The notes below the pieces were generated by a model that saw nothing but the letters and a program-made list of their open reading frames with translations, had not been told where the DNA came from and made no database searches. Below are positions 8,691-23,728 of a stretch of DNA of 64,000 bases, one piece after another (position 1 is the first letter of the stretch; every line of letters begins with the position of its first letter). Origin of the DNA: Kocuria rosea (lineage in GTDB: Bacteria > Actinomycetota > Actinomycetes > Actinomycetales > Micrococcaceae); assembly GCF_023715525.1 (NCBI RefSeq), contig NZ_JAMBOG010000020.1, positions 1 through 64,000 on the forward strand. The letters run 5' to 3'. The position numbers were made by a program, and so were the translations under genes.

Positions 8691-8994
8691 TGTTCTCGCA
8701 CGGCGCCTTCCCCTCTCCCCCGATCCCCCGGAGGGACCGACTGTGTCGAGGTCGAACCACGCAGCTGGTGCTCCCGGTCCGGCGGCGTCGCGTGAGCCGG
8801 TCTCCCACGATCGGCGTCGGAGCCTGGAACCGGCGGGGCCGGCGGCGACGGATCAGGTTTCGGGATCAGGTCCGGCAGGTGAACAACTGCTGAACAGGTA
8901 GCGTAACGGTACTGGGTCTGTCTGGGCCCGACAATGGGGTGGATGTCAAGGGTGTTCGGGGAGCACGCGCGCATCTGGAACGTGAGGTGTTGCC

Positions 8995-10551
8995 ATGTCC
9001 GGCCGGATTCTTCACGTGATCCGACGGGTTGGCGTCGTCGGGGGACGCGTCCTGGTCTACGCCCTGATCTGGGCGGGGCTCGTGCTGCTCATCACCGCCG
9101 CCGGCATCCGTTTCTACTGGGGCAGGATCTCTGTGGGCCAGATGCTCCTGAACCTCGTCTCCGTGGAAACCGACGGCGGGGGCGGGGCCATCGTCTGGGT
9201 CGGCGTCCTCGGGATCGGCGTCGCGCCCCTGCTCATCACCGTCGGGATCGCCCTGTGGCAGTGCTTCCGGCGCCGCGCGCGCCACCACCACGGCGACGAG
9301 ACGCGTCCTCGTCGATCGCCGTGGATCGCGCGCACCGTCTTCACCGCCTCGGTGGCCGCGGTGGTCGTCGGCGGCACCACGGCCTTCGCCACCACGGTGG
9401 GTATGGGGGACTACATCAAGGCGGCGAACTCCCGGTACGACCTCGGCGACTACTACGCGGAGCCGACCGTCACCGGCGACCAGCACAAGCGCAACCTGGT
9501 GCTGGTCTACCTCGAGTCCGGCGAGGCCACCCTTGCGGACGACCAGCTCTCGGAGACGGACGCGTTCGCTCCCCTGCAGGAGGTCACCCGGGCCTCGGAC
9601 GGCTGGCGGAGCGTGCACGATCTCCGGCAGTACGAGGGTGGAGGCTGGACCATGGCCGGGCTCGTCTCGACGCAGTGCGGCGTCCCGCTGAAGGACATGG
9701 TCTCCACCGCGGGCAGCGGCGCCTCGGACGGGTCCGACGGCGACGTCGACGCCTACCTGGGAGGGCTGACCTGCCTGGGCGACGTCCTCGACGAGCACGG
9801 TTACCACAGCGTCTTCCTGGGCGGGGCCAACGCCTCCTTCGCCGCGAAGGACACCTTCCTGCACAGCCACGGCTACTCCGGGGTGAAGGACCTCTCCGAC
9901 TGGCGCGCCGCCGGCGAACCGGAGAAGCACTTCCGCAGCGACTGGGGCCTGAGCGACGAACGCCTCATGGCCCACGCCAAGGACGAGGTCGACGAGCTGC
10001 ACGCCGAGGCGGAGAGGACCGGCCAGCCGTTCCACCTCTCCGTGCTGACGCTGGACACCCACGAGCCGGTGCACGTCTTCGACTACTGCACCGTGGATGC
10101 GCAGAACGAGGTCGCCTCCGTGCTCTCCTGCTCCATGACCCAGGTGGCCGGATTCGTGGACCACATGCAGGAGAAGGGCTACCTCGACGACACCGCCGTG
10201 GTGATCATGGGCGACCACCTCATGCCCAAGAACGCCGGCGACGCTTTCCACGAGCAGCTGGACGACCACGAGAACCGCACCATCTTCAACCGGATCTGGA
10301 TTCCGGGCGAGGACGCGAACAGCACGCTGCGCCCCCGCGCGGACCAGCTGAGCATGTACCCCACGATCCTGGAGGCTGCCGGCCTGACCCTGCAGGGTCA
10401 CGAGGCCGGGCTGGGCGTGTCCGCCTTCGCCCCGGAGGTCCCGGACGGTTCAGCGCAGGCGATGGAGCCGGGTCCCTATGCCGAGCTGCTGAGCTCGCGC
10501 TCCCCCTGGTTCTACGCGCAGGCCTGGGCCGGCGAGAGCGCCGCCCGGTAG
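8995..10551 (+). CDS. Sulfatase-fold phosphoglycerol transferase, OpgB/LtaS-like membrane protein
   Basis: The protein has 518 residues. Three membrane helices (about 18-40, 63-88, 113-134) are followed by a large extracytoplasmic sulfatase-fold domain. Catalytic features: Glu174 in YLESGE, the nucleophile Thr219 in GGWTMAGLVSTQCGVPL (very close to MdoB/OpgB), TLDTHEP near 350 and GDHLMPKN near 403 as metal ligands. Enzymes of this group transfer phosphoglycerol or similar groups to glycans or glycolipids. In an actinobacterium a lipoglycan or teichoic-acid-like acceptor is plausible but unproven. It is a single-gene unit. Confidence 0.85.
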   Translation: MSGRILHVIRRVGVVGGRVLVYALIWAGLVLLITAAGIRFYWGRISVGQMLLNLVSVETDGGGGAIVWVGVLGIGVAPLLITVGIALWQCFRRRARHHHGDETRPRRSPWIARTVFTASVAAVVVGGTTAFATTVGMGDYIKAANSRYDLGDYYAEPTVTGDQHKRNLVLVYLESGEATLADDQLSETDAFAPLQEVTRASDGWRSVHDLRQYEGGGWTMAGLVSTQCGVPLKDMVSTAGSGASDGSDGDVDAYLGGLTCLGDVLDEHGYHSVFLGGANASFAAKDTFLHSHGYSGVKDLSDWRAAGEPEKHFRSDWGLSDERLMAHAKDEVDELHAEAERTGQPFHLSVLTLDTHEPVHVFDYCTVDAQNEVASVLSCSMTQVAGFVDHMQEKGYLDDTAVVIMGDHLMPKNAGDAFHEQLDDHENRTIFNRIWIPGEDANSTLRPRADQLSMYPTILEAAGLTLQGHEAGLGVSAFAPEVPDGSAQAMEPGPYAELLSSRSPWFYAQAWAGESAAR

Positions 10552-20416: not shown

Positions 20417-20540
20417 GCGGGGAAGGCTATCAGCTGATCATCCCGAAGGGGTTGACACGACCGTAAGCACATGTGAATGTTCCTGTCTATGAGCTAGATC
20501 ACCGGACAATTTCCGTTGATTCCGTGACAGGAGGGGTTGA
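20417..20540. promoter_or_regulatory. Divergent promoter region of AsnC regulator and DUF6421 operon
   Basis: A consensus -35 hexamer TTGACA sits at 20452-20457 facing the operon; the -10 is poor, as expected for an activated promoter. The palindrome CACATGTG follows it at 20468-20475. A strong Shine-Dalgarno AGGAGGGG precedes the ATG at 20541. The DNA here is clearly more AT-rich than its neighbours. Confidence 0.45.
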
Positions 20541-21971
20541 ATGTCCACGTCACTGCAGACGGTGCAGGCCATCATCGGCGAGCCCGAGGTCGTCGAGGAC
20601 GCCGGCACCGTGGAGTCGAGTCCCGCGTGGCTCCGGCTCAAGTCGGCAGCCACCGAACTGCAGGCGCTGCAGATCAAGGACGGTTCGATTCCCGAGCCCG
20701 CCGACCACCCGACCGCGCGCGAGCACGTCGAGGTGATCGTGGAGTCGGTCGCCGAGCTCGCACCGCTGTTCCCGCACGGTGCGGCGTACCTGGCGGCCCT
20801 GCCCGGTGACTTCGCGCGCTGGGTCGACGGCGGCTTCGGGGAGCCGGACTTCCTCGACTCCCTCGTCGCGTTCCAGCCCCAGCAGCACCGCATCGACGGC
20901 ATCCGGCACCTCGTCGTGTTCCCCATGTACACCCAGAACGGCTCGGCGAACCGGCACGTCGAGGCGCTGATCGTCGAGGCGATCTGGCCGGAGTTCATCG
21001 CCGAGCTCGAGGCCGGGGACTACGGCAACGAGCTGTTCCTGTCCCTGCGGCTGATCGACTTCACCCCGGGATACGACTCCAACTCGGCGGTCATGTTTCC
21101 CGAGACGGTCGCCGTGCGGCAGACCCCGCCGTTCACCTGGGGGGCGATCTTCCAGGACCGCGAGGCGGCACGCTACCGTCGCGTGGTCACCGCGGCCGCC
21201 GACATCACGAAGCTGGACCTGCCCGACGACGCCGCGGCACTTCTCGCCGACCAGGACCTCGCCGAGAAGACCTTCGTGATGTGGGACCTCATCCACGACC
21301 GCACGCACATGCGCGGCGACCTGCCGTTCGACCCGTTCATGATCAAGCAGCGGATGCCGTTCTTCCTGTACACCCTGGAGGAACTGCGCTGCGACCTGAC
21401 GGCGTTCCGGGAATCGGTCACGATCGAGCGTGCCCTCACGGCGCGCACGGCAGCCGGCGAAGAGCTCACCGACCTCGAGGAGCAGACCCGCCGGCACGGG
21501 AAGCTCGTGCAGTACGCGGTGATGTTCGACCGGATCTTCCGTTTCGCCATCACCGGTTCGCGCGTGCGCAACTACGACGGGCTGGGCGGGCAGCTGCTGT
21601 TCGCCTGGCTCCACCGGAAGCACGTGCTGCAGTGGCGTGACGTCGAGCTCAGCTTCGACTGGGAGAGGGTCGCCGATGCGGTCGTCGAGCTCGGCGACGC
21701 GATCGACCGGCTGTACTGGGAGTCGATCGACCGGCCGAAGACGGTGCACTGGTTGAAGGCCTACGAGCTCATCGCCTCCGTCGTCGCCCCGCACCCTGCG
21801 TCAGCGTGGGCCGAGGGGCTCCCCCGCGAGGTGCTGGCCGGACCGCCGAAGGGGTACACGGACCTGGTGCTGGACGACGAGTTCCCGCTGTCGATGTTCT
21901 TCGAAGCGCTCGACAAGAAGATGAAGGACGTCGTCGCATCGACGACCGGCATCCGCGCCACGGACGACTGA
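20541..21971 (+). CDS. DUF6421-like conserved actinobacterial protein
   Basis: The protein has 476 residues and is soluble, with no signal peptide. I recognise it as the large conserved protein that accompanies SDR and threonine-aldolase genes in actinobacteria; the DUF number is from memory. Its function is unknown. A possible metal site is His252 and His256 in IHDRTHMRGD, with acidic residues soon after in LEELRCD (about 280-285). Another conserved-looking segment is FPMYTQNGSANRHVEAL (127-143). It is first in a tightly packed operon (3 nt to the SDR gene). Confidence 0.8.
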   Translation: MSTSLQTVQAIIGEPEVVEDAGTVESSPAWLRLKSAATELQALQIKDGSIPEPADHPTAREHVEVIVESVAELAPLFPHGAAYLAALPGDFARWVDGGFGEPDFLDSLVAFQPQQHRIDGIRHLVVFPMYTQNGSANRHVEALIVEAIWPEFIAELEAGDYGNELFLSLRLIDFTPGYDSNSAVMFPETVAVRQTPPFTWGAIFQDREAARYRRVVTAAADITKLDLPDDAAALLADQDLAEKTFVMWDLIHDRTHMRGDLPFDPFMIKQRMPFFLYTLEELRCDLTAFRESVTIERALTARTAAGEELTDLEEQTRRHGKLVQYAVMFDRIFRFAITGSRVRNYDGLGGQLLFAWLHRKHVLQWRDVELSFDWERVADAVVELGDAIDRLYWESIDRPKTVHWLKAYELIASVVAPHPASAWAEGLPREVLAGPPKGYTDLVLDDEFPLSMFFEALDKKMKDVVASTTGIRATDD

Positions 21972-21974
21972 GCG

Positions 21975-22658
21975 ATGACCGATCCGACCGGACGCACCGT
22001 GCTGATCGCGGGCGCCACCAGCGCGTCCGGCCTGGCGGCGGCGCGGGCCCTGACCTCCGCCGGGGCCCGCGTCGTCGCCACGGGGCGCAGCGCGGAGAAG
22101 CTCGCTCCCCTCGCCGCACTGGGGGCGCTCACGGAAACGGTGGACCTGGCGGACGAGCGGGCCGTGCTCGCCCTCGCCCGCAGGCTGCACGACCGTGGCT
22201 CGTCGATCGACGGGCTCCTCCACCTCGTCGGCGGCTGGCGCGGCGGGGGTGGGATCGCCGGGCAGACGGAGGAGGACTACCGCGCGCTGGAGACCTCCTT
22301 CACCGCGCTGCGGCACGTGAGCCGCGCCTTCGACGACGACCTGCGGACCTCACCCGCGGGACGGCTGGCGATCGTGTCCTCGACCGCAGTGGACCGCCCG
22401 CTGGCGGGAGGCGCCAACTACGCCGCCGTGAAGGCCGCGAGCGAGGCCTGGACCCGGGCGGTGGCGCAGGGATACGCGAAGGCCGCCCGCGAGGCCGGCG
22501 AACCGCTGCGCGCTGCAGCCGTGATCTTCCGGGTGCGGGCCCTGGCCGGCCTGGAGGACCGTCTCGCCGCCGCCTACGCCGGGCTGTGGGGCGCCGAGGC
22601 GGCGGAGCTGAACGGCTCGACCGTCGACATCCAGGAGAAGAAGCGAGGACCCGAATGA
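21975..22658 (+). CDS. SDR-family oxidoreductase in the threonine-aldolase operon
   Basis: The protein has 227 residues. The nucleotide motif is variant, AGATSASGLAAARAL instead of TGxxxGIG. The NNAG position is HLVGGW, while the catalytic set is kept as Ser127-Thr-Ala and YAAVKA (Tyr, Lys). The variant motifs suggest an unusual substrate or a binding role. The stop overlaps the aldolase start (ATGA). Confidence 0.88.
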   Translation: MTDPTGRTVLIAGATSASGLAAARALTSAGARVVATGRSAEKLAPLAALGALTETVDLADERAVLALARRLHDRGSSIDGLLHLVGGWRGGGGIAGQTEEDYRALETSFTALRHVSRAFDDDLRTSPAGRLAIVSSTAVDRPLAGGANYAAVKAASEAWTRAVAQGYAKAAREAGEPLRAAAVIFRVRALAGLEDRLAAAYAGLWGAEAAELNGSTVDIQEKKRGPE

Positions 22659-23728
22659 AAAGAGCTCATGACGTGCAGCTGCGAGGATTCGCCTCCGACA
22701 ACTACTCCGGGGTGCACCCGGAGGTGCTGGAAGCGCTCGCCGAGGCCAACGGCGGCCATCAGGTCGCCTACGGCGAGGACGAGTACACAGCACGGCTGCA
22801 GGACGTGATCGTGCGGCACTTCGGCGAAGGCGCTTCGGTGTGGCCGATGTTCAACGGCACGGGCGCCAACGTCGTCGGGCTGCAGTCCATGCTCCCCCGC
22901 TGGGGCGCGGTGATCTGCGCGGACACCGCGCACATCCACGTCGACGAGGGCGGTGCGCCAGAGAAGTCCGCCGGCATCAAGCTCCTCACCGTCCCGACGG
23001 ACGACGGCAAGCTCACCCCCGAGCTGATGGCGGCAGAGGCCTGGGGCTGGGGGGACGAGCACCGTGCCCAGCCGCTCGTCGTCCACATCACCCAGCCCAC
23101 CGAGCTCGGCACCCTGTACACACCGGAGGAGCTCCGCGCCATCACGGGCTACGCGCACGCGCACAACATGTCCGTCTACATGGACGGGGCCCGGCTCTCG
23201 AACGCGGCGGCCGCCCTGGGGCTGCCCCTGCGCGCCTTCACCACCGACGTCGGCATCGACGTGCTCGCCCTGGGCGGCACCAAGAACGGGGCTCTCGGCG
23301 CCGAGGCCGTGGTGGTCCTCAACGAGGCCGCATCCCAGGGGCTGGTCTACCTGCGGAAGAACCAGATGCAGCTGGCGTCGAAGATGCGGTTCGTCTCGGC
23401 CCAGCTGCTGGCGCTGCTGGACGGCGACCTGTACCTGCGCAACGCGGGCCGTGCGAACGCGATGGCCCGGCGTCTTCGCGACGGCATCGAGGCGGGCATG
23501 GCCGACGGGTCGTTGCGAGGCGTGACCTTCACGCAGGAGACCCAGGTGAACGCCGTCTTCGCCACCTTGCCCGGCGGCACCGCGGACCGCCTGCGCCGAC
23601 GGTTCCGGTTCTACGACTGGGACGCCGCGAAGGGCGAGGTCCGCTGGGTGTGCAGCTTCGACACCACGGAGGAGGACGTCGACGCCTTCCTGGGCGCCCT
23701 TCGTGCCGAGCTCGTCCCGGTCGGCTGA
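22655..23728 (+). CDS. Low-specificity L-threonine aldolase-type PLP enzyme
   Basis: The protein has 357 residues, fold-type I, splitting beta-hydroxy amino acids into glycine and an aldehyde. Markers: FASDNYSGVHPEVLEAL, MFNGTGANVVGL, His93 stacking on PLP, YMDGAR (Asp177), and the PLP lysine Lys210 in ALGGTKNGALG. The start is the ATG overlapping the SDR stop. With an AsnC regulator and a dehydrogenase beside it, an amino-acid-related pathway is likely; the actual substrate is unknown. Confidence 0.92.
   Translation: MKRAHDVQLRGFASDNYSGVHPEVLEALAEANGGHQVAYGEDEYTARLQDVIVRHFGEGASVWPMFNGTGANVVGLQSMLPRWGAVICADTAHIHVDEGGAPEKSAGIKLLTVPTDDGKLTPELMAAEAWGWGDEHRAQPLVVHITQPTELGTLYTPEELRAITGYAHAHNMSVYMDGARLSNAAAALGLPLRAFTTDVGIDVLALGGTKNGALGAEAVVVLNEAASQGLVYLRKNQMQLASKMRFVSAQLLALLDGDLYLRNAGRANAMARRLRDGIEAGMADGSLRGVTFTQETQVNAVFATLPGGTADRLRRRFRFYDWDAAKGEVRWVCSFDTTEEDVDAFLGALRAELVPVG

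Follow-up and report, generated by a model that had tools for sequence, protein, structure and literature searches.

In a 64,000-nucleotide stretch of Kocuria rosea DNA (contig NZ_JAMBOG010000020.1, from a 3.6-Mb genome, G000), referred to here as the window and most similar to other Kocuria loci, three codirectional genes encode a long-type protein of the DUF6421 family, a short-chain dehydrogenase/reductase (SDR), and an L-threonine aldolase-type enzyme dependent on pyridoxal phosphate (PLP), and lie divergently from the gene for an Lrp/AsnC-family regulator (Table 1). This arrangement is confirmed: the DUF6421 and SDR genes are 3 nt apart (TGA GCG ATG), the SDR stop codon overlaps the aldolase start as ATGA, and every coordinate behind the tight coupling described in a first-pass annotation of the sequence holds. 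Pfam scores are 791 bits for DUF6421 (PF19985; gathering score, 25 bits; 435 of 437 positions covered), 72 bits for adh_short, and 156 bits for Beta_elim_lyase (PF01212). The family and fold of all parts, the metal ligands of the first protein, the gene order, and an upstream palindrome are directly supported by sequence, fold, or conservation. We propose, with a probability of about one half, that these proteins would together convert an amino acid into a β-hydroxy amino acid and the latter into glycine and an aldehyde.

Table 1. Features of the DUF6421 operon and its surroundings in the window
Feature	Coordinates	Strand	Basis or remark
Lrp/AsnC-family regulator, 151 aa	19961..20416	-	Pfam HTH_AsnC-type and AsnC_trans_reg; divergent from the operon
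Predicted operator GGACAATTTCC	20504..20514		One mismatch to GGAANNNTTCC; 26 nt ahead of the DUF6421 ATG
Long-type DUF6421, 476 aa, predicted Fe(II)/pterin-dependent amino-acid oxygenase	20541..21971	+	PF19985; PolE match by sequence and fold
Classical-fold SDR, 227 aa, predicted pterin reductase	21975..22658	+	Pfam adh_short, motif conservation, human QDPR alignment
PLP-dependent low-specificity L-threonine aldolase-type enzyme, 357 aa	22655..23728	+	PF01212; PDB 5vye, 7w0i, 1v72
LysP-type amino-acid permease remnant, last ~150 of ~498 residues	23800..24261	+	Similarity to the permease of relative L002

The first-pass annotation assigned no known role to the large protein, a view that no longer stands: DUF6421, a family of ~10,000 members whose function was first deciphered in 2025, includes PolE, an Fe(II)/tetrahydrobiopterin (BH4)-dependent oxidase responsible for the 3,4-desaturation of L-isoleucine during polyoxin biosynthesis (Du et al. 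2025, PMC12614342). PolE activity needs Fe, O2, and BH4 and is boosted 2-3 fold by dihydropteridine reductase (QDPR); mutants in the metal motif are insoluble, or soluble but inactive, and crystal structures, including 9j2e and 9j3g, are in the PDB (PMC12614342). A PDB search with the window DUF6421 sequence matches 9j3g (E 1.2e-7). Fold comparison by VIA of its AlphaFold2 model (predicted local distance difference test score, pLDDT, 81.5) returns five PolE entries at Z 26.4-25.8, with 9j2r and 9j3g at Z 26.4 and 26.1, root mean square deviations of 3.6-3.8, and ~358 residues aligned; Foldseek pairs the model with PolE at E 1e-10. The next fold, that of dipeptidyl peptidase III (DPP III), follows at Z 16.5, and a hydrolase of this peptidase fold might be considered on the strength of that second match. 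However, the HExxGH zinc motif of DPP III is absent (the window protein has HDRTH, its homologues HDxxH or HExxH), HDxxH and E281 are placed as in PolE, and the crystal structure of PolE, an Fe/pterin oxidase, matches far better, which makes a hydrolase extremely improbable.

The metal motif of the window protein, H252-D253-x-x-H256 plus E281, follows the H[ED]xxH-plus-Glu pattern of PolE-type oxidases. H252 and H256 are invariant in 47 Micrococcales and 17 diverse homologues, and E281 sits in an invariant LEELR segment in which E280 is likewise invariant; the spacing from the motif is X24 to E281 and X23 to E280, and Du et al. 2025 give X21-23. The three ligands align with H205/H209/E233 of a SnPolE-like sequence, equivalent to PolE H202/H206/E230 with an offset of three. 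Structure prediction combined with a metal search of the 476-residue protein, proposed in the first-pass annotation as a check, thus yields the PolE fold with an H252/H256/E281 triad; the metal centre suspected there is upheld in its two histidines, whereas the acidic ligand is E281, the counterpart of PolE Glu230, and not the segment just after the histidines. F186 and Y345 correspond to SnPolE F140 and Y280, residues mutated in deposited structures (SnPolE numbering was inferred from an equal-length homologue of 373 aa at locus L104, in which all three mutated residues match in letter). Because the PolE fold, the metal triad, and the F186/Y345 equivalents are retained, Fe/pterin/O2 chemistry is likely, and the operon DUF6421 is, judging by alignment and model, very probably an Fe/pterin amino-acid oxygenase.

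Several differences weigh against a simple transfer of function. Sequence identity between the window protein and PolE is merely ~15%; the window protein is ~100 residues longer and has HD for HE; and SnPolE Y157, the residue replaced by Ala in the complex with L-Ile, corresponds to Ile203 in the window protein and in every long-type sequence. The gene context differs as well, with an SDR and an aldolase and no PolF, and the substrate probably differs from that of PolE. Two DUF6421 genes elsewhere depart from the long type. At L104, positions 8956-10077 encode a short PolE-like protein (373 aa, HEYHH motif) adjoining very long open reading frames (ORFs) that, judged by eye, resemble nonribosomal peptide synthetases (NRPS) and an FAD-dependent enzyme, and this locus may supply an unusual amino acid to a natural product. 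At L103 (8391-10553), in a distant lineage, the DUF6421 frame reaches 720 codons, either through an upstream fusion or merely as a longer open frame.

The SDR has the altered nucleotide and NNAG motifs noticed at first pass: its nucleotide loop reads AGATSASG, and VGGWRG (residues 85-90) occupies the NNAG position, while the catalytic residues S135, Y149, and K153 are intact (model pLDDT, 95.9). In an alignment with human QDPR, whose query sequence is identical to PDB 1hdr, QDPR carries VDAILCVAGGWAGG (motif CVAGGWAGG) in the place of VGGWRG, so that both proteins have GGW at the NNAG position. The altered block, VDGxxHLVGGWRG, is near-invariant from Micrococcales to a distant lineage despite identity down to 34%; nearly all operon-linked SDRs keep VGGWRG, across lineages in which they are just 34-40% identical, with VGAWRG in one relative, and 2 Mb of locus DNA contained 148 SDR-like ORFs, 115 with [HP]LVGGWR and 18 with an NNAG-like block. 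The C-terminal segment of longer SDR homologues also aligns with QDPR, sharing the pattern M-R-x2-P-x3-F-x2-[FW]-T. The protein shares with QDPR the SDR fold, GGW.G replacing NNAG, and Tyr-x3-Lys, but differs in its glycine-rich loop and in having Ser135 where QDPR has Ala.

Comparisons of the whole protein count against kinship with QDPR: PDB profile searches place FabG-type SDRs first, with no QDPR among the best 60; the SDR is overall nearer FabG/ribitol-dehydrogenase-type SDRs; and global hhalign gives E 4e-12 to QDPR versus 5e-20 to FabG. The VIA structural top 50 also lacks QDPR, although these are all classical SDRs within 1.2 Z and the comparison is non-discriminating. Membership in the QDPR family was therefore rejected and the functional analogy retained; we conclude from the alignments that the SDR has what appears to be a QDPR-like active-site feature. 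Since PolE chemistry consumes pterin, pterin recycling would be the most economical role for the SDR, and by motif and analogy we lean slightly toward a pterin reductase. Alternatively, the SDR could act on the DUF6421 product as a dehydrogenase/reductase of a β-hydroxy (or β-keto) amino acid, as does the NAD-dependent L-phenylserine dehydrogenase of Pseudomonas syringae, which oxidises the β-hydroxyl of phenylserine (PMC2963168); its overall proximity to FabG/ribitol dehydrogenases and its intact catalytic residues would suit this activity. We consider it unlikely, given that the VGGWRG block kept among such divergent SDRs coincides with that of QDPR and that the pterin consumed by PolE chemistry requires recycling.

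The genomic supply of and demand for pterins bear on this assignment. In bacterial phenylalanine hydroxylase systems, phhA occurs with its pterin recycling genes; the operon would similarly encode an Fe/pterin amino-acid hydroxylase close to a pterin recycler, both predicted, but the hydroxylase fold is unrelated and an aldolase follows. The aromatic amino-acid hydroxylase family (PF00351) is absent from 41 related Micrococcaceae genomes, so DUF6421 is the likely pterin consumer, and the idea that the SDR serves an aromatic amino-acid hydroxylase was rejected on the same grounds. GTP cyclohydrolase I is present. Less favourable to a pterin cycle is that pterin-4a-carbinolamine dehydratase (Pterin_4a) is absent from the window genome; across the 41 genomes it occurs in 18 of 27 with DUF6421 and 5 of 14 without (hand count), no convincing link.

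The third protein is homologous over its full length to the L-threonine aldolases 5vye (E 3e-69) and 7w0i and to the aldolase 1v72, the three lying at E 1e-67 to 1e-69, and shares with them the GGTKNG lysine and the His and Asp motifs; K210 within GGTKNG is the predicted Schiff-base (PLP) lysine, as befits a fold type I PLP threonine aldolase. Its nearest known counterparts are thus low-specificity L-threonine aldolases and enzymes of the phenylserine-aldolase type. L-threonine aldolases split β-hydroxy amino acids into glycine and an aldehyde, and the suggestion, made at first pass from the aldolase, that the operon handles such an amino acid was judged right. Unlike its three structural homologues, the operon aldolase is encoded together with a presumed hydroxylase, and we think it reasonably likely that it acts on the DUF6421 product. 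A Streptomyces coelicolor enzyme of this aldolase class, which we do not equate with the operon gene, is employed in making L-threo-dihydroxyphenylserine (L-threo-DOPS) (PMC4761611).

Long-form DUF6421 genes are usually found in this operon. Our neighbourhood survey comprised 80 genome loci, 73 of them with at least 2.5 kb downstream; the SDR gene lies next to DUF6421 in 61 of the 73, an aldolase gene within 5 kb of it in 61, and both are found in 50; that the three genes form one conserved unit, as first supposed, is borne out. The SDR and aldolase genes of many Microbacterium loci are separated by a gene on the opposite strand that belongs to a transporter-like cluster. DUF6421 occurs in 27 of the 41 Micrococcaceae genomes (28 genes), and the VGGWRG codon pattern lies within ~400 bp downstream of 26 of the 28 (hand count from coordinates); elsewhere in these genomes the pattern is about as frequent as its reversed control, and the two DUF6421 genes that lack it, at L143 and L144, retain the aldolase. 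In a phylum-wide sample DUF6421 is present in 10 of 198 genomes. The unit is carried by all seven sampled genomes of one genus (g6; 7-10 Mb, probably Streptomyces), with identities to the window proteins of 53-55% for DUF6421, 62-64% for the aldolase, and ~38-40% for the SDR, and the same gene order recurs in G165, a distant lineage. A neighbourhood not conserved elsewhere, which the first-pass annotation named as a refutation, is therefore not what is found. Distance matrices of the three proteins, built from 52 loci, correlate with one another (r 0.81, 0.79, and 0.69; 0 of 500 shuffles), as expected for genes inherited together, although species descent contributes too. The genes stay together, far above chance, in most examined actinobacteria carrying DUF6421. 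Exceptions that weaken the case for a joint pathway are DUF6421 and aldolase genes without the SDR in Micrococcus (L003, L059, L143, and L144) and an SDR without an adjacent aldolase in Agromyces.

Some loci carry further peculiarities. One genome has a second DUF6421-SDR copy (L095, G008:C17) in which the aldolase gene is apparently in pieces. Six Microbacterium loci (L022, L031, L032, L046, L060, and L072) have genes resembling those for ω-aminotransferase and (methyl)malonate-semialdehyde dehydrogenase upstream of asnC, and in some Microbacterium loci upstream genes (clusters 17 and 22) resemble those of pyrimidine or β-alanine catabolism.

Downstream, the window has lost genes that its relatives keep. 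In four Kocuria relatives (L002/L118, L115, L117, and L119), the aldolase gene is followed by genes for an aldehyde dehydrogenase (ALDH) and then a LysP-type permease; Micrococcus L003 retains the permease downstream. The L002 permease is intact, and over its residues 345-497 the window remnant shows 82% identity; relative to these loci the window lacks ~2.68 kb at a point bracketed by the positions that match 23814 and 23825. From this comparison, a deletion of ~2.7 kb appears to have removed the ALDH gene along with the first two thirds of the permease, counted from its N-terminus, unless the gap downstream of the aldolase is an assembly error. The permease belongs to a LysP-like subfamily (721 bits, just below the 735 cut-off) and the ALDH lies near succinate-semialdehyde dehydrogenases; a basic amino acid is possible as the substrate, and the permease/ALDH evidence was too weak for a claim.

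We posit that the operon is an oxygen-dependent route of amino-acid breakdown, the building direction being less likely. DUF6421, as a mononuclear non-haem Fe(II) enzyme, would use tetrahydropterin and O2 to attack the C-β side of a free amino acid, and because the aldolase gene adjoins, the outcome would be β-hydroxylation rather than PolE-like 3,4-desaturation. The SDR, with NAD(P)H, would reduce the spent quinonoid or dihydro pterin, giving the operon its own pterin recycler, and the threonine aldolase-type enzyme would cleave the β-hydroxy amino acid into glycine and an aldehyde. In close relatives, ALDH would dispose of the aldehyde and the permease would import the substrate amino acid. 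We infer the substrate, the hydroxylation, the pterin as SDR substrate, and the direction of the aldolase from these combined indications. More tentatively, and at somewhat less than even odds, we suggest a widespread actinobacterial form of amino-acid degradation that combines Fe/pterin β-hydroxylation, retro-aldol cleavage, a separately evolved QDPR-like pterin reductase, and Lrp-type control.

The opposite direction deserves attention, since threonine aldolases are reversible: if the cassette served the biosynthesis of a non-proteinogenic amino acid, the aldolase would join glycine and an aldehyde, or DUF6421 would desaturate, and the SDR would tailor the product. PolE itself acts in polyoxin biosynthesis, and many DUF6421 genes adjoin those of amino-acid-modifying enzymes, with unusual amino acids expected as products of the family (Du et al., PMC12614342); the short PolE-like DUF6421 of L104, beside NRPS-type and flavoprotein-like genes (by eye), fits this picture. 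We nevertheless doubt it for the long type, which occupies ordinary chromosomal surroundings shared among genera, where no biosynthetic neighbours were recognised, and is carried, as part of the unit, by every sampled genome of genus g6. The catabolic route fits because relatives add an importer and ALDH; their loss from the window genome is a point against it, and there the later steps would be covered elsewhere or be dispensable.

The literature searched contained no paper linking pterin-dependent enzymes to threonine aldolase in such a pathway, nor any mention of the operon unit, the QDPR-like motif of the SDR, or the operator; the general idea of DUF6421 beside amino-acid-modifying enzymes was already noted by Du et al. 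(PMC12614342). To a family with one characterised function so far, the analysis adds, for the long form, a usual gene context and two proposals open to testing: a partner for cofactor recycling and, as the class of products, aldolase-cleavable β-hydroxy amino acids. If correct, it would place a pterin-dependent amino-acid route in common soil actinobacteria, the searched relatives of which lack an aromatic amino-acid hydroxylase, and would pair a new type of C-H hydroxylase with an aldolase, a combination useful for making or breaking β-hydroxy amino acids.

The divergent regulator scores above cut-off for both PF13404 (helix-turn-helix, HTH) and PF01037 (ligand-binding), placing it in the Lrp/AsnC family. 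Among 78 Micrococcales loci with upstream sequence, 54 have a divergent asnC gene; most other Micrococcaceae and the large-genome genus g6 lack an adjacent copy. Exact copies of the palindrome GGAANNNTTCC occur in 46 of the 54 AsnC-DUF6421 intergenic regions (window included; shuffled expectation, 0.2), and copies within one mismatch in 53 of the 54 (shuffled expectation, 3.2). Of 59 upstream regions in which no divergent AsnC was scored, a single one, that of L139, holds an exact copy, and AsnC is in fact present there. The longer operator pattern CGGANAATTNTCCG proved too stringent, matching nothing in the promoter. Because the palindrome tracks the asnC gene, AsnC control of the operon, as assumed at first pass, is supported and on sequence grounds highly likely where the regulator is present, although its presence is not universal. 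Co-occurrence points to AsnC as the probable binder of GGAANNNTTCC, and the regulator would govern transcription via this palindrome upstream of DUF6421. In L096-L098, from the large-genome genus, a similar conserved site, GGATAATTTCC, precedes DUF6421 although no asnC gene adjoins.

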